Source: Fasciolopsis buskii (lineage: Eukaryota > Platyhelminthes > Trematoda > Plagiorchiida > Fasciolidae). From it: a DNA stretch of 64,000 nt. Below the pieces are notes generated by a model. That model was given only the letters and a program-made list of their open reading frames with translations. It had not been told where the DNA came from and made no database searches. A program made the position numbers and the translations under genes. Below are positions 7,232 to 58,029 of the stretch, in pieces. Position 1 is the stretch's first letter; each line of letters begins with the position of its first letter. The DNA is taken from contig LUCM01004989.1 of NCBI GenBank assembly GCA_008360955.1, positions 1-64,000 of the forward strand. Direction: 5' to 3'.

Positions 7232-10200
7232 CCTCTCTTGGTTACGCCGTCCACTGTCTTCAGACAGTGAGCATGAGGAGTTCTAGGAAGAACTAACCGA
7301 ACAGTTTTTCCCCACACCCTGATCCCTGAGCTTATGATTTGGATTAAAATGACAATCAAAAGTGCCAGAACCTTGTGGAATTAATCAACTTACGTGAAAA
7401 CCGTTGCCAATTTTTAAAAACGCTGAAAAACTTAACAATTGGGGTTCTATATGCATATATCTGAAAGACAAAATACTAAAAGGTAGTCGAAATCTGGTCA
7501 GACAAAGGATTTCAATAAGCAGTATTTGCAAAAGAATGGTGACCCCGAAGTGTTTCCATACTCCAAGTTTTACACAGCAAGACTTCGCGCAAAGACAGGA
7601 TACCTGGTTAACCCCCATCGTTTATTGTTACCAATGCAGCTCAGTAAGGATTTTTTACCTCTCCAGTCCAGATTGTCTGTTTTCGAGCCCCCTTCCCTGT
7701 GATCCATTGCTTGCGTGTGTTCGTGACAGCGCCATGCGAGCAATGGGCTTAGGCAGCGTGCTACGCCGTGACAGTCGGTCACTTTAGAAGCTCGCCTCAT
7801 CGCATCCGCAAAAGTGACAGGTACACGTATCAAGTATGGACCAGCAGTTATCTCCCCGTACGCTGTTTGCAACAGCTAGAAACGGTTGGAAAAAATGACA
7901 TAGACAGAAAGAATGAAAAAGCTTACAGAAGATAAATCATCAGTCAGTTTTTTTCGCCATGATGATGTGGATTGTCCTTGCTGAGAGATTAGAGCAAACG
8001 GCCCCAGAAATACCTTAATTGTGAGGATTTACGACGGCTTTCCGTGTTGACATTGCGAGCGCCCAAAAGATCAGATCAAGGAACAAAGGAAAAGACGGGG
8101 AAGACTGCGAACGAAAAACAGGACAAAAGTATAACTTTTTGCAGTGAATGATAAAATGTTAATAACAGTGTTATTGGCAGATGTAATTCGCTAAAGTTTC
8201 GACTACCGTGGATAGTCTTTTTTAAGGCAAATTTCACAACCAGCTTACCCTGAGAAAGACTACTCACGGCAGTCGAAAATTTGTCGAATTGCATCTAACA
8301 ACAACATTGCGTTATTACCATTAAATCATCCACAGTAAAAACGAATAAATGATGAATCGATTTTTCGATACAGTCCTTACGTCGCTCGGTCTTGATATTA
8401 GATACTACTTACTTTATCCATCAATCTGTCTAGCTCCTCTTCAGTCTGAGCTTTATTGCCAGAACGTAAATGCGAGTCCAAATACTTGGCTAAAAATTCA
8501 GCTGGTTTATTAGGACGCTGATTGACAAATTCCTCGTAGCCTTCTTGAACCACTCGTATGAAACTTGCATCGTTCTCGAAACAGAAACCGATCAACTCGG
8601 ACAAATTATCCCGATAGTCCAGAAGGTTCTGAATCATACATCGATCCTTCTCCGGATCCTGTGATGGATTATCGACCATTTCACGACCCACTTGGATCAC
8701 ATACAAACGAAAATGTGCGCGCAGTTTGTCGATGCCGTTTGGTACACGGGAAAGTAGGGAATAAAACAAACGAAGTTGTTTATGTTCCTTGGCTTTTAAA
8801 GAAGAAACCAAACCGTTGTCTAACAAGTGATCTAGGGTTCGGGTCAACAATTCGGTGACCAGAGTAAAAAGTAACGGTTGTCTGGTACATCCTGGTTCCA
8901 AGTATGCAACCAAACGGTCCTCCTCCTCAGCAATACGTTTGTCAACGTGAATGAGGTATTCCGGGACGCTTAGTTGACGAGAAAGCGAGTCCGCTTCTTG
9001 ACTGTAGAAGTGCTGACTTTGCAAGAGGAATTCAGAGAGGAATATTGGCTGATATAACTGAAACATAGAACCGAGAAAAAAACGGTTTAGATCATGGTAT
9101 TAAGACCCAAAGGAAGTAGTCCATAATTAAGGCACACAAAAGGTAACAGTAGGATATCATCATCGGGCCCAATGAGACCTAGATAAAGCTTCGAACATAA
9201 TAAAATGTGAGATGAAACTGATTTCTGTCTTCAATAAAAAATCAGGTAGAAATGGAAATCACAGAGTCACAGAGAAATGACAACAAATTAAAATAAAAAA
9301 TCGTCATGCCATCTAAGGTCCCACTAGGTCAAGTACTATCGCCAATCCGTCGACAGCCAATTCACCTAGTATACAGGGAGGATGTCGTGCCTCTGAGAAA
9401 CCAAAAAGTATAGCTGAAATGCTTGAGATTCATTTTATTCTTCGAGAATGTACAATACAACTGCAGGAACAAACTAGTTTGAAAGATGTGATATAATGGT
9501 AGCTCAAATCGAAACTAATTAATTTCGCTAGTCAGACGGCTACTTTCGACCTGAAGTGCCATCGCGTGTTTAGAAAGTCAATCTGGCTTTGAATGACTTA
9601 CAACAATTATGACGTCAGTCGATAGTCGTTTCGTAAAAGTGTAAAGAACGAAAGCTACACCGATTCTTTGGAAGCAAGGCAGTGATCAGTAGGAATTCGC
9701 CCTGCTCTCTAGAGCTGAACGACGATGATGATGACGTCGAGCCGCAGAAGTGCATTCGTCCCATATGGCGGATAAACATAGAACATTGGGGTTCCAGTGC
9801 ATACTTCTAAGTAACATTGCTAGAATATGATAGGCAAGCCACAACAGTGATGAGTTGACGTAGGTGAACCAAGAAATCGGTCTTTAGCGATCGATTACGG
9901 TGATTGCAGTGTGCTGCACAGGTTATCGGAGAAACCTCGCTCATTTGTATTAGTTGGCCGTTGCAGGATGAGAAGAAAAAGCAAAATCGTGACAGAATTA
10001 ACGGATGGGAAATTCCTAACCGGTGAATTCCAGTTCCAGTGTCTAGATCCATTCGCTTTGCGTCGAAATACTTTGATTTTGGTTGCTACTTCAAAGTATC
10101 GCCTACTAAGAAGCAAAATTGACGAAGATTCGTGGTCGAACAAAACAAACTTTAAGGCCAAAAATTACATATTGTGATGACTGAATCCTTCTGCTAATGT

Positions 10201-13200
10201 TCACCACGGAAACCATCTTCAGCCGAAAGGACTGCTGACGAGCAAGGATACAAGTAAAGTAGAAATCTTACGAAGAACACTCCCGCTCATCACCGATGAA
10301 GTGTGAACTCGAAATTACTCACCAAACTGTATATGAAGGAAGATGGAATGCGAAGAGGCTACGGAGTGCGATGTGTAGCAATACCACCCACTATCTCCGA
10401 GAACATTGGGGGAAAAGCAGCTGAACCCCAAACCCGAAGTAAAGTGCCCTTAACTGACCCAGTCCATCATTTAGGGTCTTCAAACCCAAAACTGCAATTT
10501 AACCAATATACGCCTCCCACAATGAACAATGACAATCGCAAAAAGGATTCGTTGCATATCCCGACAATGCCTTGTCTTACACAAGCTTAGCGAGCCTCTG
10601 AAGACTGAACTCCAGAGCCCAATGAACTACACCTGAATTCATCATTGCCAGCAACGTTTTCCTACCTTACACGAGCGATACCAAGGAAACAAGGATGCAT
10701 AAACACCTCTGGGCAAACTTGGCCCAAAACGTCCATGCTTTTGGGCCTTTATAGATGGGAGATACCAAACCAACAGTGCAAACTCGAGTCCTGATGAACG
10801 GTCGATGATTGAGGTTTGCGAAAGATGACTGGGTGTGCGAAACTACCGAAATGTCAGCCGGATGGTCGCAAACATTTTGGTAAGTTGTTATTAAAGTAGT
10901 TCTTCGAGGTAAGAGATCGATGCACTCGAAGGAACCAAGGAGGTTGTCACTTTGGTACAAATTATGCGGATTAAATTATCACACTTCCGGAAAGCTTTTT
11001 ACTTGCCTAATCGTGAATCCCCTCTGACTACAAGTCGATCTGACGTTAGGATTAATCTCGACTGATAACCAGTTTCAAAATTGAACAAACATCGTTCGAG
11101 CAGCATCATGGCCTGAAACTACATGGAACAGCATGGAGACCAATCCGAAAGAACTTCGATTGTCCGATGGGTCAATTTCAGAGCTGTCTGGATGACCAAA
11201 AGGCAATAAGTAAACGGTGATTTTGGTGGTACTGAAAAAACAAGCAACCCTATCGTCAAAACCTAGGTGCACTTTAACGTGGAATGACGACTTGCGTGCC
11301 TCCATAATCCAACGAGCTAGACAGGATGGCTTTACGGAAGAGGAAGATCCAATCATGCCTCGAGGGTCCATGGGTAGAAGCCTGACAAAATAGTCTTCTG
11401 AACCTCCAAGCCACGTGAGGGTATATAGTGACCTAACAGGTTCATTCGAAACGAGGAGTGGTGTTCGGCAGGGATTTCCCACCTCTCCATTCTTGTTTAA
11501 CTTCATCATGAATGAGATAGTGGAGAGAACTGTATGAGATCTCCAGGACGTAGGCATCGAAATGGCTAATGTTGAGAAGCTATCCGATCTAGATTACCTA
11601 GATGACGCTGTGTGCCTGTTCGAATCCGCGGACCATGCACAACGTGCACTAGACAGACAATCGAGGTTTGTAGCTCGGTTCCGCATGTGGTTTGCACCTT
11701 CGAAGTGTAAAGCACTGTTACAAGACTGGGCAACGGTGGTCTCGAACTTGGTACTCGATGGAACGGAACTAATGACTGCGGATTGTTTCACTTACCTTGG
11801 TAGCTGCGTGTCGAACGATGGGAGCAGCGCAGTAGAAGTTAACACACGTCTATGTAAGGCTTGAGTGGCGTCCGCTGGACTGAAGCACTTGTGGCGTCTG
11901 CCTGATATTTCCTTGAAGTTCAAAGGTCGGATGCACTGCGCTGCAGTGCACTCAGATCTGCTGTATGGTTGCGAGACATGAAGTATGCATGTCGGAGATG
12001 TTCGTCGCTTGGAGGTTTTCGATCGCCGATGTCTACGTAGTATCCATAGGATTGGGTGGAGTGATCGGGTGATTAATGTGGAGATGAGGAATTTAGTATT
12101 TAGGTGCTGTCTCTGAGAATACCTTATCTCAGCGTATGGAACTTAGTAGACTGGGCTGGTTAGGTCATGTGTTGCGTATAGCGAACACTCGTCTATTTTG
12201 GGTTCCTCCTAAGGAATGGAAGAAGCCATGCGGAGGCCAGTAGATGACATGGCAACATGAGATGAGAAAATGCAGAGAATTTAGGTAAAGTGGGTGTCTC
12301 ACGTCTTCGTGGATGGGGCCGAAAAACCCGTCAACTAGCTGCGTGGAGATGTTGAAGAATATACCAGGGAACCGTGAACAGTGGCGATCGTGCTGTTATT
12401 TTCTATCGAATCAGAATGATTGAAAGAGTGCGTTTGTACAGTTAGACTGTGTTTCGTGTGTTACCTACTGCAGCACTCTTATCTTTTCCCGGCCACATAG
12501 GTCCACTCCCTGTTCCCCTTGGATATTCACTCTGTTTATGCAAACACGTAACCCTGGGGAAAAGGCAGCCGTTAGTGAGGTTTACCTTGTTGAATAACGC
12601 TGAACGATGATTATGAGTTTCACATAAGCACGTTAAGAAGGGTATGAAGTTACCGGTTAAATCATGTTCATCCTAGTTTCCTTCGCATACGTTCTAAATG
12701 TTCTTGTTTCTAATTATTTGAAAATTCCAACTGAGCACACTGATAAAACACAAGTTGGCGAACAAGTTCGGTTTCAGTGATTCGAACATTACATCACGAC
12801 AAATTAGGATGAATTTTCAGAAGCGATTGGATTAATCAGACAAAAGTAGGAGTGGGGAGGAGGGTGTTTGTGGTTACATGCATAGCTCGAATAAAGATGA
12901 ACGTTTTGTGTTAATAGTTTCATGGTCTAGGGTTTGCATGGGGAGGGGAGGATTGTGAAGACGGACCAAGACAGCTTCCGCTATGCTCAAGAAGCGAAGC
13001 TTTGCCAACCTAGACTGTTGACTCCTGACCTTATACAGAGTCCGGAGAGATTGCGTGACATTCGCGGTGTGGTCCACCTGTGCTAGGTGTGAAACGACTG
13101 CACTATTAAGTGGCTTAGTTGTTCCAGTGCCCAACCATGTAGGGTGGTGCTCACGGATGCGTTCAGACAAGCGTTTAATTGTGTGGCCCACGTGCGTTAT

Positions 13201-16200
13201 CCCATAGGAAAATGTGAACGCATAAACACGAAACGAGGCTGCAGAATCAGGAACTTTATTTTTCAACCGTAGTGACACCATGGGGCGGAATTCGAACAGG
13301 ATTCGAAGCTTAGCTACGTAAAATGTCTTAGTGATAGCGCTAGTCAGTCTTCTTGTTATCTCTGCTAGCTGTTACCTTTGAATGGCAGAAATGTGTATGC
13401 TGGCTTTCGCTCCACCGAAGCTTTTCTATCTCCGATATCTTATCAATTAATCTACTTGGGAAGCCATTTTCAGTGAATACTCTTCTTACCGTCCGCATTT
13501 CAGCTTCAGGAGTATCTTCTGCACATATTCTTTTTATTCTCTCTATGAAACATCTAATTAGGTGCCTTTTGACATTAGGAGGTACAAAGCTGTGGAAGTT
13601 GATGTATCGTCTATTCCACATGGCTTTTCTGTGTGCTGATCGCCGAACTGAGCCGTCTTCTCGACGACTTAATTGTACGTCTAGGAATGCTATTTCATTG
13701 TGCAACTCCATCCATCTTCGTTGTGAATTTCACATTTGCGTGAGCCGAGTTGAACTTATTCACCAGTTGATTAGTTCTCGTCGATGAGTTAAGTACGCAG
13801 AAGATGTCATCCACCTGACGTTTGTATAAGTAGAGGGTTTGCATTGACGATTCAAGTGACTCACGTTCCGGCTTTGCCATGAAAATGTCGGCTAGTAATG
13901 GACCGAGTGAAGACTCATTGCTACGTCGCCCTTCTGAAGTTTACATTTCATTGCTAAATTTAAACTGGACGTTGTAGGTACAAGGAAACAGTAGTTGTTT
14001 CGAGTTTGCTACCGCAAGATTTGTCGCTATCCCACTGTTCTCGATTTAGTCACGGAGGTACTCGATTGCTTCCGTGATTCGAAGGTTGGTAAAAAAAGAG
14101 CGATGACGCGCTAAGAAAACATTCTTCGTCCTTTCATATCTAACTTTTTCACGGAGTCGGTAAGCCGAAATGTCTTTGAGGCTGTCTTGCCAACTTCCGT
14201 CTAACAGATTTCAACAACCTAGCCGGCCATTTTGCCACGTGATACGGTGAACTGCACATGTCGAGGATAGGTCTCAAAGGAACTCCGTTTTCATGTAATT
14301 TCGGTAAACCTCATTCTCGGAATAGTGGTTCCCGTAGGCCGAATCTGTTCGAATTTATTATATCCTTTTGTTTCAACCGTCTCAGGATGCTGAAAAACGA
14401 TTTTTTAGTTTGATACGCTTTATCATCCTCCTTTGTCATTTTCGCAAATTTCGACTTGTCATTCGGAATGACTTTCACTTTCGCTGCGTAGTCAGATTTA
14501 TTAAGGAGCGCTATCCCCGCACCTTTATCTGGTCTTGATAACAAGTCCACATTTTTCTACAGTTCTCTCCTTTAACCACCTCTTATGTTCTGGCTTTAAT
14601 AACCCACTCGTTGGATGTCTAGCGCTATGATAATGATGGCAAGTGTATACCAAAGCTGAGTCAAATGGTTGCATTTCCATTCGTGGTGACCGAGATAAAC
14701 TCAATAAATGAGAAAGAATTCTCAAATCCAACTTTCAAGTCCATTTGTGCACTCGGCTTACTTAGACAAAAAAATTTGGACTCCAGGAATAAAAATTCTA
14801 ACCGTGTCTTACCTAATTTGAAGTCTGACAAACTGGGAACAAATCGACCAGGATTCTGTGGAAACTCATTCGATGATCTGGATCATTCCAATCCTTTCAC
14901 TATTACTTGGCGCTTCCGGTCCACCTCTTTGTGCACAATGGATAAACCGTATTCCTCAAAAGATCGTTTTTCTTCCTCAGTCAATTGGTGGAGCACATGA
15001 GTTGATATCACAAATGTTCGTTCTAATTCCGCAGTATGACGGCACATTGTATCAAGTTCGTTAAGAGCTTGTCTTTGAAGTGAGGTTTTAATATGTATCC
15101 GGTTTCTCCTTAACAGTGTACAATACTGTTCTGGAAACTTGGGTTTAGTTATACAGTCATCCAAGAACTGAACATGAGGTCTAGCCAGCGCCAGTTTCGT
15201 ATAGAACTTATTGTACTTACAGAATTACAGAGATCAATCTTAGGGGCTTGTGCGAGCCGCTGATTGTACTGACTTGCAAAAAAGGTGATGGATCTTGATA
15301 TAAAAACTGCAGAGGAATTAGTCTCCAAAGCGCTGCATCAAAACTGGTCGCGAGCATACTGCACTAAAGATTATCTAGTGCTCGTGAAAGGTGTGTGCGA
15401 CGGAACCATGCCGGTTTTCGTCCAACTCAGGATTGCATTAACCACCTTAAACCAATTAAAAAATAGGTACGTTTCGCGGACTCACGATTTCCGCTTTTTT
15501 CTACCTGGAAACGGCGCTCAACTTAGTCGAACGTGCAGTTCTTTGGCGATGCTTTTCAACGAACGGTGTTCCAGAGAAATTCACTTCACTCAGCTAATAT
15601 AAGTAAGTGAACAGCAGAAGCCGACTTCGGCGATCTCACCCGAATTTACCACGAAAAGTGGCGTTCGCCAGGGTTGATTCAACTCAACTTACCTTTTCAA
15701 CTTTGTCATAGATATGGTTATGGAGGTGGTCTTATTCTCGTGTTGGAATAGTAGCTTCAATATTTTCTCAGAGAGGAAACTGTCTGAATTAGAATATACG
15801 GACGACCTTTTGTTGCTAAGTGAAGACCCCGGGGAGCTGCAGGTTCTTCTAGTCTGAATAACTGCAGTTGTGTGTGAGATGCATTTGGCACCTTCTAAAT
15901 GTAAAATGCTTTTAAAAGACAAAGTTGGTCCGAAACCGAACCATGTTATTGAAGAGGAAATGGGTTGCATATATAGCTAATAGGGTCGTTTTGCCTCACC
16001 TGAATGTCATGTCACATGAAGTGCCTCCGCTCATACGGAAGGCTTGATTGGTATTCATCAGTCCGAGGTGTCTGCGCCGTCGGCGTCACATTTGGTTATC
16101 GATCGAAATTCTACTAGGCACAGCAACAGCTAGGTCGGAGCTACTGTGAAACTTGTTTCCGGGAGATGTACGATAACTTTCGACGTCTAAACACCGTTGT

Positions 16201-18144: not shown

Positions 18145-21100
18145 TTATTAGTGCACTACCAACACTACAAAGAGAAACCGTCCAACAAAAATGGGCAAAA
18201 GCTAAAAAAACACTTCAGGAGGAGATTACGTGGCATTTTGAACTATGCATAAGACAAATTATCTCCAACACCAACTGAGACCATGGTTAATCAGACCCAT
18301 GTGGCTTATTCATTAGTTGTTGGAAGACTTTCGGTTTTTTCAGCTGTATTGCTGGAAGCCACAGTACTAAATTTTTGGCCGCCAGCATCAATGTTGGATA
18401 TTATTGAGGGCTGCATTAGCAGTGATGAAAGCCAGGAATTGTGGCGTACATTTTATAAAAACTGGGCAAATGAGTCTCGGAGTCTGTATAGCACGCTCTT
18501 ACGAAGGTATCCAGGCAGAAAACATTTCGAGAACGGCCCTTCTTACCATTCTGAATACTTAAGTCCGGGATGATGATCGTGCTAACAGAGGCAATCCCTG
18601 TGATCTGGGGCTGAAGGTATACATTCCTACTGGCTTTCAGTAGAGTTGTGAGTTGAGCTTATTCCATGGTCAAGGAAGAATTCGTTTGGTACTGCTAATC
18701 GTTTAGGTCACCATGTCCAATCAATGTTTGATCGAATATGATCTACTTGCTAATGCAACTGTTCACCCACAGCCGCTGACGGAAGCTAAGCGACTGTAAG
18801 TCGGATAGCGTACTCTGTGACTTAGCATTAAGAGCTTTAGGATTTCAGTCTCTGGTGAATGTCTTCAGCCTACAGATTCCGAAAGTCACCTTACATAACC
18901 AGAGCCCTTGGGCTGGCTTCTTGATTACATCTCGTTTTTCTCCCCAGCTTTTAACCTTACCGACCCTGTGAAACACGAGGTGACCTTCCAACTTCAGTGA
19001 TCCTTCTGATCAGAATAACTGCCGCCCGATTTCCCTCACATCTGCTACTTCGAAAGTACTTGAATCTGTCACCTCCAGATAACTCCGTTAGTTCCTCAGA
19101 GGCGAAGGACTACTGAGCAACCGCCAACATGGATTCCGACTTCGCCTTTTAATCGATTATCTACTGGTCCTAGTCTTACTCCTAATTGGCTGCACTCAGT
19201 AGCCAAGATGAAATACATCTAATCCCATTTAACATCTCCAAGGATTTAACCGAGTTTAAAATGAAGGCAGCCCGAAGACACTGCCTACGTTCGGGTTCTC
19301 TTCGGCTCTCGTATCTTGAAAATATGGTTTCTTCTATGAACAAATCATCTCCGCTCGAGTTAACGGCGTTCTTTCCCAGCATATCACTGTAAAAATACTC
19401 GCTTTCCTCAAGGCACAGTACTTAAGCTGTTCCGCTTCCTTTTGGTCACTGTTGATGTTCTGCCCAACACCTGCAACCCAAAAAACCACTACTGAATTTC
19501 CCAATCTCCTTTCTTTCCTCTACTAATGTTCAGTTCCGAACAGTTGTTACGCCAATTAACCTCAGGCCAACGTACGCTGATCTTCGTTGCTACATCATAG
19601 CACCATCTACTCAAAGAGAGAAAAATGAGGACTAATATAAGAGCGATTGCGAAGTGTCAGATTGAAACATTATTTCGGATGCAAGATCGTCATAAACTGT
19701 GGTACTGGGTCGTATTACCTATTGTCATCAACGATACATAGAGGGATCCCATGGACCTCAACCACGCAACGTAATTGGAACTACCCGAGTCAGCCCATCG
19801 GCTGACGTCTGCATATTTCTTCGTCAATGCATGGACTGATCACCTTAACTGACCTTCCAATAATTACATGCTTCGCAGAACCGCAGATATTGAGACAGTC
19901 CTTTGGTCCTAAACTCCCAGTTACTGAGAGAATTCCGTCACCATATTCCACCAATACTACGGAGACAACGGTGCTTGAACATCATAATCATCGTTCAGCG
20001 TTATTCAACAAGGTAAACCTCACTAACGGCTGCCTTTTCCCCAGGGTTACGTGTTTGCATAAACAGAGTGAATATCCAAGGGGAACAGGGAGTGGACCTA
20101 TGTGGCCGGGAAAAGATAAGAGTGCTGCAGTAGGTAACACACGAAACACAGTCTAACTGTACAAACGCACTCTTTCAATCATTCTGATTCGATAGAAAAT
20201 AACAGCACGATCGCCACTGTTCACGGTTCCCTGGTATATTCTTCAACATCTCCACGCAGCTAGTTGACGGGTTTTTCGGCCCCATCCACGAAGACGTGAG
20301 ACACCCACTTTACCTAAATTCTCTGCATTTTCTCATCTCATGTTGCCATGTCATCTACTGGCCTCCGCATGGCTTCTTCCATTCCTTAGGAGGAACCCAA
20401 AATAGACGAGTGTTCGCTATACGCAACACATGACCTAACCAGCCCAGTCTACTAAGTTCCATACGCTGAGATAAGGTATTCTCAGAGACAGCACCTAAAT
20501 ACTAAATTCCTCATCTCCACATTAATCACCCGATCACTCCACCCAATCCTATGGATACTACGTAGACATCGGCGATCGAAAACCTCCAAGCGACGAACAT
20601 CTCCGACATGCATACTTCATGTCTCGCAACCATACAGCAGATCTGAGTGCACTGCAGCGCAGTGCATCCGACCTTTGAACTTCAAGGAAATATCAGGCAG
20701 ACGCCACAAGTGCTTCAGTCCAGCGGACGCCACTCAAGCCTTACATAGACGTGTGTTAACTTCTACTGCGCTGCTCCCATCGTTCGACACGCAGCTACCA
20801 AGGTAAGTGAAACAATCCGCAGTCATTAGTTCCGTTCCATCGAGTACCAAGTTCGAGACCACCGTTGCCCAGTCTTGTAACAGTGCTTTACACTTCGAAG
20901 GTGCAAACCACATGCGGAACCGAGCTACAAACCTCGATTGTCTGTCTAGTGCACGTTGTGCATGGTCCGCGGATTCGAACAGGCACACAGCGTCATCTAG
21001 GTAATCTAGATCGGATAGCTTCTCAACATTAGCCATTTCGATGCCTACGTCCTGGAGATCTCATACAGTTCTCTCCACTATCTCATTCATGATGAAGTTA

Positions 21101-32448: not shown

Positions 32449-32746
32449 GCAATCAAGGTTTAAACGACGTAAGGAGTGTATCGAAAAATCGATGCGCCAT
32501 GTATTGGTTTTTTTTATTGTGAATGATAAAATATTAATAACAAAGCGTTGTTGGTAGATGTAATGCGCCAACGTTTCGACTACCGTGGGTGGTCTTTCTC
32601 AAGGCAAGTTTTACAATCAAAGCATTTGATTGTAAAACTTGCCTTGAGAAAGACCACCCACGGTAGTCGAAACGTTGGTGCATTACATCTACCAACAAAG
32701 CTGTGTTATTAATATTATATCATTCACAATAAAGCAATCAAGGTTT
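32449..32746 (+). repeat. Palindromic foldback element with 13-bp target-site duplication
   Basis: Arms 32513-32619 and 32627-32733 are 107 nt each, about 95 percent complementary by eye, with a 7-nt loop AAGCATT. The direct repeat GCAATCAAGGTTT at 32449-32461 and 32734-32746 brackets a 272-bp element. A unique segment, 32462-32512 (ACGACGTAAGGAGTGTATCG), precedes the left arm. Each arm holds CGTTTCGACTACCGTGGGTG or its complement. A second copy lies at 8135-8392. Confidence 0.9.
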
Positions 32747-32796: not shown

Positions 32797-33090
32797 GCTG
32801 GTAAATCGAATATTTCCTCGAAATTATTCACCACGTGATGTCATCGCTTAAATCACCGTTAGGAAAACATGGAAAAGCATTTTACAGCTGTTTCATCCTT
32901 GTTAGGAATCAGCACGCCCGAACAGGGATGTGAGCCCAGGATTAACGATGTTGAATCGGACGCCTTAACCATTACACAACCGCGTGGGCACTCAACTAGC
33001 CGATAAACTTCACCACACTGTGGGGTTTCACCTATCCATCACTGATTTGCATGACCACGGGCCGCTAACGCACAGCAAATGGCCCCTATT
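32797..33090 (-). mobile_element. tRNA-like SINE with degenerate hammerhead motif
   Basis: The reverse complement carries an A-box-like GTAATGGTTAAGGCGTC, a B-box-like GGCTCACATCC, and then GCTGATTCCTAACAAGGATG and AAACAGCTGT. It aligns with the 52 kb SINE from its leader (CAGTGATGGATAGGTG) to its tail (GGTGAATAATTTCGAGG). The hammerhead core has lost bases (CUGAUU instead of CUGAUGA), so self-cleavage is not expected. Confidence 0.75.
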
Positions 33091-33159
33091 GATAGATTAC
33101 TTCAGTTCGGGTGGTCTAAGTGAGGAGAAGGCTTTGAACATAACTTGCAGAGCTTGGCT

Positions 33160-33250
33160 GCTTGCTGTGTACTAGCAGTCCCGGGTTCGCATCTCAGTTC
33201 GGGTGCAGTTGGTAGGCACTGCTGATGATTTCTAACAAGGATTGAATGTT
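33160..33250 (+). mobile_element. Partial SINE, same family, opposite orientation
   Basis: GTCCCGGGTTCGCATCTCAG (B box) is followed by GGCACTGCTGATGATTTCTA and ACAAGGATTGAATG. The CUGAUGA box is intact, but the second core box reads UGAA instead of GAAA. With 32797-33090 it forms an inverted pair like that at 52 kb. Confidence 0.65.
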
Positions 33251-52027: not shown

Positions 52028-52090
52028 TGAATCCTTGACTGAAATAATTCACCATGTGATATCATCACTCAACTCACCATAAAGAAAGCA

Positions 52091-52147
52091 TGGAAGCACT
52101 GTACAGCTGTTTCATCCTTGTTAGGAATCATCAGCAGTGCATATCCA
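52091..52147 (-). ncRNA. Type-I hammerhead ribozyme in minus SINE arm
   Basis: The reverse complement of this segment is identical to the plus-arm ribozyme over stem I, both core boxes, stem II, stem III and the GUA site. Transcripts from either strand of this locus would therefore carry one complete ribozyme, together with the complement of the other copy. Confidence 0.82.
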
Positions 52148-52421
52148 CCGCGCCCCAACTGGGACGCGAACCCGGGACGAACGATTGTGAGTCGAACGCC
52201 TTAGCCATTACGCTACCGGGCAGGCTCTGAACGGTTTGTTGAACTTCACCACATGAATCGCTGTGAGGTAACGGACAGTAACCGTGCAAACCAGTGACGG
52301 ATAGGTGCAACATCATGTGGTGAAGTTCAACAAACCGTTCAGAGCCTGCCCGGTAGCGTAATGGCTAAGGCGTTCGACTCACAATCGTTCGTCCCGGGTT
52401 CGCGTCCCAGTTGGGGCGCGG

Positions 52422-52478
52422 TGGATATGCACTGCTGATGATTCCTAACAAGGATGAAACAGCTGTACAGTGCTTCCA
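52422..52478 (+). ncRNA. Type-I hammerhead ribozyme in plus SINE arm
   Basis: Core box CUGAUGA lies at 52435-52441 and GAAAC at 52456-52460. Stem I is GCACUG (52429-52434) with CAGUGC (52468-52473), extended beyond an internal loop by UGGA (52422-52425) with UCCA (52475-52478). Stem II is UCCU/AGGA with loop AACA, next to a U-U mismatch at the core. Stem III is a 2-bp AC/GU with loop AGCU. The predicted cleavage site is GUA, after 52467. Very short stem III and type-I topology are features of the schistosome Sm-alpha and other metazoan retrotransposed hammerheads. Confidence 0.82.
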
Positions 52479-52575
52479 TGCTTTCTTTATCGTCAGTTGG
52501 GCTATCATATCACATGGTGAATTATTTCATGAAAATATTCAATCTCCTAGTACTAAAAAAATGAATCCTTGACTG

Positions 52576-55904: not shown

Positions 55905-55975
55905 GCTGATCTGGGCTGTCCCGCGCTGGTTGAAATTCCGCGTGCTATTTTGGCGCGCGCTGAAGGTCGCATCGG

Positions 55976-57090
55976 ATGGCTAAACCCGGTTAGTTCACCG
56001 TATCGTTCTGAGGTCTTGACGATTGTAGAGGGTCGTGGTGACTTTAGGGGGGGACGCTCAAGTGATCGCGGTCGTGGAGGAGCTCGGAATAGTTTCGGTG
56101 GTGAAGGTAGATCGAGTTTTCGAGGAGGCGATGGGAGTCGTGGTGGGTTTGGGCGAGGCCGCTTTAGCGATAGAGGGGCGGGTGGCGGCAGAGGAGGAGG
56201 CGGTAGAGGGGGACGCGGTGGAGATTTTGGTGGCAGAGGTGGACGTGGCACACCGCGGGGTCGTGGTGGATTCCGAGGTGGAATGCGAGGAGGCAAAAAA
56301 GTTTTCATTGAACCACATAGGCACGAGGGCGTGTTTCTTGCTAAGGGAAAAGAAGACTGCTTAGTCACTCGGAATATCGTTGTTGGTGAGTCGGTGTATG
56401 GAGAAAAGCGCATCAGTGTTGAAGATGATGCTGGTGAAAAAATAGAGTACCGCGTCTGGAACCCCTTCCGTTCGAAACTGGCTGCTGGTGTAGTTAACGG
56501 CCTTGATCAAATACACATGAAACCCGGTTCTCGCGTGCTGTACCTCGGTGCTGCCAGCGGTACGACTGTTTCTCACGTGTCCGATATTGTTGGACCGGAT
56601 GGAGTTGTATACGCTGTTGAATTCTCTCATAGGTCTGGACGAGACCTGCTGAATGTTGCAAAGCATCGTACTAACATCGTCCCAATAATTGAGGATGCGC
56701 GCCATCCACATAAGTACCGGATGCTTGTTGGTAAGTCTTTCTGCTTTCACGTAACATGCTGAAAGGTATGGTCGATTGTATCTTCGCGGATGTTGCTCAA
56801 CCAGATCAGTCGCGAATAGTGGGTGTTAACGCCGAAAGCTATTTGAAAAACGGTGGACATGCGGTCATGTCTATTAAAGCTTCTTGTATTGACTCAGTAG
56901 CTGCCCCCGAAGTGGTGTTTGCAAAGGAGGTCGACACCTTACGTAAGTTGCAGTTCACACCGAAAGAGCAGGTAACTCTCGAGCCATTTGAAAGAGGGCA
57001 TGCAATGGTAACAGCACAGTACAGGTATGTTGGTATTAATTTGAATTTATTCCTCTCAGGGCTCCCAAAAAGGTCAAGTCGGAGACATAA
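55976..57090 (+). CDS. FBL: Fibrillarin, rRNA 2'-O-methyltransferase
   Basis: Fibrillarin is the SAM-dependent methyltransferase of nucleolar box C/D snoRNPs and methylates ribose 2'-OH groups of pre-rRNA. Exons: 55976-55988, 56029-56730, 56766-57024, 57060-57090; introns are 40, 35 and 35 nt, all GT-AG. The product is 334 residues, close to the usual 320-330. Residues 6-93 form the glycine/arginine-rich nucleolar domain (RGG, FGG and GRGG repeats). The methyltransferase fold follows, with the SAM motif [11 protein letters not shown] at 178-187, [15 protein letters not shown] at 197-211, [10 protein letters not shown] at 228-237, [12 protein letters not shown] at 242-253 and [10 protein letters not shown] at 273-282. 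The C-terminus is APKKVKSET. The start was chosen because ATG GCT AAA CCC G joins across a short intron to the Gly/Arg frame; the first exon codes only MAKP and part of Glu5. The SAM motif and the Asp and Lys positions look intact. Confidence 0.95.
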
Positions 57091-58029
57091 ATGTTCGATC
57101 TGCCGTCCTATTGTATATATTATATATATATATGTTGTTTTTGAGACCGCTCATGTTTTCCCCGGTCATCAACCGCGCTCACCGGATAGACTTATAAATA
57201 GTCAACAGGATCTAAGAGATATACGTAAATAGTAAACTATGGATCCATTTCTTTGGTAGACGGCAGCCCACTCGTACGGCTCTATGTAGCCGTATACCAC
57301 CTGACTTAATGTGGCTCTGTTCCACTCCAAATTTCAGATTCATGGTTGCGTGATCTATTCCCGTGTAGTGGGCCCTGAAGGTTGTTGAGGATTGTTATGT
57401 TCACTACGAGCCTGCTTAAGGCTTGTCAATGAAGAATGCCTATGGTTAACGTGAGTCACGAAAAACAAGAATGTGTACAATCGGATCACTACCTTTGCTG
57501 CGAATGTCTAGTAGCATGCCGGAGACGGTTCTTCACTCCCAAAAGCGGGTTCCCTTCAACCGGCCGGTTATAAAGCTCCAGTGAAACGCAATATCAGCTG
57601 TTGATATCGTCAGTGAAGCGGTGCGGTAGCTAGAATTCAGTGATTTCAGTAAACCACGATATGAGTATCCTCTATCCCTGTCGTAAATTAGGTATCGCGT
57701 TTCCCATTTCTCCTAGAAGCACTTGAGGGGTTCTACTGTCGACTCGTTTATTCCTCCGATTGGCCTTCTGGGTCGGTACTTGGTGCAATGTACAATGTGA
57801 AAAATAACTTCTTACAAGCGCAATATTCATTTAGGGCTCTTTGCCGCAAAAGCTTTCCCAAGGTAAGCACTATGGCACCGCAGCTGATACCTCCGATTCC
57901 TATGTTCAATCCCAAGACAGAAAAAAGCCTGCCTTTCAAAACTGATTAGAAGTAAGTGGTTCCATTTCTAAGTTGCTTCTTATTCATGGGCTGCTTCGAC
58001 CACAAAGCCCTATCGTTGAATTCAGGTCC
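57091..58029. other. Downstream flank of fibrillarin
   Basis: A short TA run at 57114-57132 lies just after the stop codon. No clear poly(A) signal close to the stop can be assigned with confidence, and no coding trace was recognised. Confidence 0.3.

Follow-up and report, generated by a model that had tools for sequence, protein, structure and literature searches.

We have found that a 64,000-nt stretch of DNA of the fluke Fasciolopsis buskii (contig LUCM01004989.1, referred to here as the window) carries two head-to-head arms of a non-autonomous, SINE-like retrozyme, which combines a tRNA-like Pol III head with a type I hammerhead and is probably copied by the reverse transcriptase and endonuclease of a Penelope-like element (PLE). 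Within this PLE model, the identity of the enzyme, the transcription of the element, its cleavage and its circles are the parts that we infer. The features of the window are collected in Table 1, and all unit positions given below are counted from the ribozyme cut.

Table 1. Positions of the retrozyme insertion, its parts and related features in the window
Feature	Position	Strand	Remarks
GIY-YIG-like C-terminal part of a decayed PLE	12877..13368	-	candidate relative of the mobilising enzyme
Older diverged retrozyme copy	32805..33164	-	72% over 377 columns; hammerhead box I hit by a deletion
Short arm adjoining the older copy	33178..33242	+	86%; likewise head-to-head
Target site duplication, left copy TGAATCCTTGACTG	52028..52041	.	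last 2 nt common to the element end; 14-nt outer-flank match
Retrozyme minus arm	52040..52256	-	3' end at unit 62 (site A), facing outward
Second hammerhead core	52096..52140	-	sequence as in the plus-strand core
Minus-arm tRNA-like head	52151..52221	-	Rfam tRNA 23.7 bits, gathering score 29
Retrozyme plus arm	52257..52558	+	ends 3' at site B (unit 91); next come three additional A, then the right-hand target duplication
tRNA-like head, Pol III promoter candidate	52348..52418	+	A box TAGCGTAATGG 52354-52364; B box GGTTCGCGTC 52397-52406
Type I hammerhead with outer stem I extension	52422..52478	+	predicted cut after 52467
Self-complementary stem III strand ACAGCTGT	52459..52466	+	2-bp stem in the monomer, 8-bp in a two-ribozyme dimer
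Region 3' of the cut	52468..52561	+	contains sites A (unit 61-74) and B (unit 89-104), where copies of the family end 3'
Target site duplication, right copy	52562..52575	.	flank match

The complete type I core of the plus arm occupies positions 52429-52473 and lies 3' of a tRNA-like head with A and B boxes. The first-pass annotation had described this copy alone; the second hammerhead, which faces it head-to-head on the minus strand, was absent from it. The minus arm is 97% identical to the plus arm over 217 nt, and both belong to one insertion at about 52040-52561 flanked by a target duplication of 12-14 bp. Since TGAATCCTTGACTG is found on both flanks of the arms, the pair was most likely inserted as a single event. 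The tRNA-like head remained below the gathering score of the Rfam tRNA family (23.7 against 29 bits) and ARAGORN called no tRNA, although matches to both the A and the B box are present on the 392-bp unit of the element. Matches to the Rfam family Plastid-ycf2, also below gathering, lie over the head on the opposite strand and were set aside. A near-perfect palindrome at 32599-32647 (+), near the older retrozyme copy, gave a weak sub-gathering match to Rfam mir-2831. Elsewhere the window contains a fibrillarin gene of at least two exons (55905-57232, +) and a cullin exon (8398-9099, -). The fibrillarin exon matches Fasciola gigantica at 97% identity (95% of the query) and Schistosoma and Trichobilharzia at 91-93% (80% of the query), which indicates a fasciolid-like fluke as the host. 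Two identical 116-aa frames on opposite strands and 8 kb apart (11792-12142, -, and 20456-20806, +) probably mark a large inverted repeat.

The plus-strand hammerhead has the features by which type I is recognised: a CUGANGA...GAAA core, three stems, an NUH triplet (here GTA) and an open stem I. In the letters of the window, the CTGATGA box is at 52435-52441, the GAAA box at 52456-52459 and the GTA triplet, after which cleavage is predicted, at 52465-52467. Stem I is formed by GCACTG and CAGTGC and is continued by an outer TGGA/TCCA helix beyond a 3/1-nt internal loop, and stem II consists of the three pairs TCC/GGA (52443-52445/52452-52454) closed by a TAACAA loop. Where a pair usually adjoins the core, this ribozyme has a U.U (52442/52455). 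All of the parts reported by the first-pass annotation, that is the two boxes, stems I to III with the outer extension and internal loop of stem I, and the GUA triplet, were thus recovered as it had described them, and we also consider its naming of a type I hammerhead, of a tRNA-like head and of the schistosome Sm-alpha precedent to be sensible. The comparison with Rfam models that it had proposed came out divided. Nothing reached a gathering score, either among all Rfam families in the scan of the window or among hammerhead-clan matches in 20 further loci, yet there was a clear sub-threshold match to Hammerhead_1 (RF00163; cmscan on 801 bases, 26.7 bits, E 3.7e-4, gathering score 34). When the whole window was scanned, the top match of the hammerhead clan was HH9 (24.9 bits, E 0.078). 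The Hammerhead_1 match exceeds chance, although it is sub-threshold in Rfam.

The element is very abundant. The exact 33-nt core occurs 849 + 819 = 1,668 times in the 703-Mb genome, while the reversed control pattern gave no match, and a subfamily in which the stem II loop is 3 nt longer adds 78 + 78 cores genome-wide. The suggestion that the U-U in stem II is a trait of the family is borne out, since every one of the exact cores carries it and a genome-wide search for a single canonical G-C variant of stem II, CTGATGAGTCCN{4,8}GGACGAAAC, gave 0 matches. The loss of the core boxes from most genomic copies, which would have spoken against the ribozyme, is not what these counts reveal. One diverged relative (L088:1478-1529; G000:C2111:106961) has a tRNA-like head and the core CTGATGATTCCCAATAAGGACGAAACGTC, with C for U before GAAAC. 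Copies also form head-to-tail arrays of a 392-bp unit with 47.4% GC, such as those in L029 (3.6 copies) and L025 (3.7 copies), both with 99% matches. We looked at the missing TTTT terminators in the unit as possible evidence and rejected them, as 60% of Markov shuffles were also without TTTT.

With its type I hammerhead in 392-bp arrays, the element falls within the description of metazoan non-LTR retrozymes, which carry such hammerheads in tandem repeats of 150-450 bp with a GC content below 50% and, where target duplications are present, have ones longer than 4 bp (excerpts of PMC7229834). We class it as a non-LTR retrozyme of animals, of the same kind as schistosome Sm-alpha, and it resembles the metazoan retrozymes of that source in the size of its tandem unit, its GC content and its target duplications. 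In contrast to them, the ends of its insertions are resolved here and bear the marks of PLEs. Its units, like those of the Sm-alpha SINE/satellite, measure a few hundred bp and include a type I hammerhead, the Sm-alpha-like W36.2 unit being 335 bp long according to a part of PMC8490949. Compared by description, it differs from Sm-alpha in its 392-bp unit, in the U.U beside the core and in the palindromic strand of its 2-bp stem III. We return here to the reading of the first-pass annotation that the ribozyme is borne by a SINE. That reading captured the tRNA-like head and the hammerhead, and it missed the inverted insertion, the 392-bp tandem retrozyme and the PLE marks. As for the head, Sm-alpha of Schistosoma mansoni was reportedly described as carrying a tRNA-like one by Ferbeyre in 1998.

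The first of these marks is given by the 3' ends of the copies, which in the sampled loci fall at two sites past the ribozyme cut, at about 61-74 nt (site A) and 89-104 nt (site B). In the first 30 loci together with the window (74 rows), 16 ends lie at unit 61-74, 31 at 89-104 and 0 at 75-88, while 20 rows run on into the next unit and 7 end elsewhere (133, 166, 173, 187, 221 and twice 238); those at 221, 238 and 238 look like alignment breaks within arrays. A second sample of 30 further loci (27 after overlaps) was picked by the exact core alone, with the ranges fixed beforehand, and its 42 rows were distributed as 16 at site A, 16 at site B, 2 at 88, 5 elsewhere (51, 55, 57, 60, 167) and 3 running on. 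When the outer 3' ends of 68 insertions were pooled, using slightly wider classes (A = 58-76, B = 86-106), 31 of the 99 belonged to A, 50 to B and 18 to neither, with 0 at 77-85. Sites A and B do not represent two subfamilies, because arrays ending at site A (L025, L029, L034) hold the stretch beyond A in their inner units. The two sites are about 28 nt apart, which agrees with the PLE-type pattern of alternative ends roughly 30 nt from each other.

The second mark is the arrangement of the arms. We classified 69 insertions uncut by a locus edge, of which 68 are distinct (L085 overlaps L082) and some are local duplicates and not independent (two copies in L030 and repeated pairs in L016). Head-to-head arms were present in 31 insertions and a single orientation or a tandem in 38, but this classification split groups at plus-minus neighbours, so that its zero for tail-to-tail arms is built in. 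Counted unsplit, 31 insertions (L083 being counted beside L082) gave 15 head-to-head and 0 tail-to-tail, and junctions between adjacent segments were head-to-head in 33 cases against 1 tail-to-tail, the latter in L009, where two head-to-head pairs abut. The outer ends of the 31 head-to-head insertions were paired as A+B in 15, B+B in 4, A+A in 0, B+other in 8, A+other in 3 and other+other in 1, and A+B is in significant excess by permutation (p 0.0077) when the 19 pairs with both ends classed are considered. At least one outer end outside A and B was found in 12 of the 31 head-to-head and 5 of the 38 single-orientation insertions. The arms overlap by 2-5 nt at 20 of the 31 junctions. Target duplications of at least 8 nt flank 15 of 31 head-to-head insertions and 6 of 37 single-orientation ones (that of the head-to-head L073 consists of an AT repeat alone), compared with about 1.1% in a swapped-flank control; no target duplication was detectable in the other 16 and 31. 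Those of at least 9 nt, AT repeats excluded, are 73-78% A+T. A large part of the insertions, though not all, thus has the PLE-type combination of head-to-head arms, a tail on one arm and a duplication. Of 62 5' starts of head-to-head arms, 14 cluster at unit 341-369, which lies to the 5' side of the hammerhead (p 0.012). In L011, L014 and L067, an arm starts at unit 263; this base, 16 nt upstream of the A box, is a possible Pol III start site.

Do PLEs of the same genome insert in this way? The window itself contains a decayed PLE (10700-16200, -) with a GIY-YIG part, a member of a family that is very abundant in the genome (6,570 first-look candidates, 150 of them scored). The GIY-YIG-like part gave no Pfam match and is presumed by us to be Penelope-like from the known features of the family. 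In 14 loci of this PLE, 22 ends were compared with the reference end: 11 lay at -3 to -11, 4 at -30 to -34, 1 was the reference's own end and 6 were elsewhere, so that the 3' ends form mainly two groups about 26 nt apart. Target duplications were examined in 7 of the 14 loci, chosen for two visible pieces, and 5 of these 7 had duplications of 12-16 nt outside minus-plus arms (L045, L051, L049, L040, L047; the PLE reference does not cover what separates the arms of L051, L049 and L040), while L042 and L053 had no such duplication. PLE copies in this genome therefore share the insertion marks of the retrozyme.

The same marks are familiar from PLEs of other animals. The reverse transcriptase of PAc from Anolis starts at two internal sites, which define a tail of 30-40 bp, and both target strands are cut and extended; subtraction of the published positions puts 85-92 nt between the hammerhead cut and the main start downstream of it (sections of PMC11167929). 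As in PAc, the 3' ends of the retrozyme lie at either of two positions that are separated by about 30 nt and follow a hammerhead cut. In the rotifer Adineta vaga, head-to-head is the commonest arrangement of PLEs, the tail is optional on one inverted arm and target duplications measure 8-10 bp (excerpts of PMC3846280), and the retrozyme shares with these elements its head-to-head arms, the tail on one arm, the target duplications and partial tandems. In contrast to PLEs, it has 392 nt, no protein and a Pol III-like head. At the start sites, the comparison with a single PLE family revealed neither a shared sequence nor a shared fold: the end of the retrozyme had no sequence similarity to that of the PLE (p 0.73), and folding at the ends was strong in the PLE (z -3.1) and weak in the retrozyme (z 0.74 and 1.16). 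No hammerhead was found with Rfam in the 14 PLE loci. A minimal PLE-type hammerhead pattern, CTGATGAN{6,26}CGAAACGTC, had 7 + 4 matches against 3 + 3 for the reversed control, too few for so abundant a PLE family, and was rejected. The partner of the retrozyme may be a different PLE family.

Could the element instead be an ordinary SINE moved by a LINE, with a fixed 3' end at which target-primed reverse transcription begins, and with inversions arising by twin priming? Variable 5' truncation, target duplications and microhomology, all seen here, also occur with LINEs, which could have made those 12 of the 31 head-to-head insertions in which an outer end is unusual. However, twin priming starts the inverted segment inside the RNA, whereas in 19 of the 31 both outer ends are the usual 3' sites. 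Moreover, the spacing of the two 3' sites by about 28 nt and the use of one of each in an insertion match the tail of PLEs, and in our comparison of retrozyme and PLE copies the PLEs of the same genome carry the marks as well. We regard mobilisation by a LINE as rather unlikely. It is less likely still, and in our opinion very improbable, that the element is a satellite DNA whose 392-bp tandems, carrying the ribozyme as a by-product, owe their spread to recombination, segmental duplication or rolling-circle DNA. Such an origin would suit the head-to-tail arrays with 99% matches and the local duplicates in L016 and L030, but it accords poorly with at least 1,668 cores spread across many contigs, with single-unit and inverted insertions, with target duplications at 21 of 68 insertions and with the fixed 3' ends.

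More questions are raised by the ribozyme itself. Is it possible that the hammerhead is an inactive relic and that a plain Pol III SINE RNA spreads through the PLE enzyme without cleavage? The pair position beside the core binds metal, and a U.U there may weaken catalysis; together with the sub-threshold Rfam score and the three 5' ends that share unit 263 upstream of the A box, this favours a relic. So does the misfolding of the monomer, whose minimum-energy fold is not the hammerhead (-17.3 against -10.9 kcal/mol, with a pair probability of 0.00 for stem III). PAc mutants in the ribozyme still insert (as described in part of PMC11167929), which points in the same direction. On the other side, differences from the reference unit in 66 distinct segments amount to 0.35% in GAAA and 0.25% in stem III/GTA compared with about 2.7% in the flanks, although box I (2.7%) and the 5' strand of stem I (3.9%) are unconserved. 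In the 62 distinct fetched copies that span the ribozyme, the variation resembles neutral decay by inspection, and covariation in the family speaks neither for nor against the fold. We consider a relic possible but doubtful. When two copies are folded together, the minimum-energy structure is a double hammerhead in which the palindrome ACAGCUGU forms an 8-bp stem III, resembling the minimal hammerheads of PLEs, which may cleave as dimers (excerpts of PMC7761336). The energy gained by dimerization is not above that of shuffled sequences (66% of shuffles gain as much), so that the two-ribozyme dimer is a structural suggestion only.

The PLE model that we prefer would explain the insertions as the coordination of several events. 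Tandem units would be transcribed into a multimeric RNA, which the hammerhead would cut into 392-nt units, and these may be ligated into circles. A dimer would probably act best in this cleavage, since stem III has 2 bp in one copy alone and 8 bp between two. The PLE protein would nick both strands of an AT-rich target, and on each strand cDNA would begin internally, either about 66 or about 95 nt downstream of the cut. Synthesis of both cDNAs would proceed in the direction of the RNA's 5' side and in some cases pass round the unit more than once, after which the two would be joined head-to-head, mostly through 2-5 nt of microhomology and often with a target duplication of 8-14 bp. The inner units of arrays cross the cut site, from which we infer that the template is an uncut multimer or a ligated circle.

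PLEs have already been proposed as the movers of retrozymes on the basis of co-occurrence, shared hammerheads and tandem copies (excerpts of PMC7229834 and PMC7761336). Our search of titles and abstracts in a PubMed Central collection returned no report of PLE end marks on a retrozyme, and what is new here is the genomic evidence for this earlier proposal, namely the pattern of 3' ends and arms. The finding bears on which enzyme mobilises the hammerhead retrozymes of animals. Any animal genome can be searched for the two-site ends and head-to-head arms, and the existing in-vitro PLE assay could test them. The one-of-each pairing of start sites (p 0.0077, n 19) constrains how PLEs prime two target strands. 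We lean towards the wider view that the hammerhead retrozymes of flukes, and perhaps of animals in general, are parasites of PLEs, in which both target strands are primed and one cDNA is made from each of two adjacent sites on a tandem or circular RNA. If this is true, the tails, the head-to-head arms and the arrays would all be explained by one PLE mechanism.
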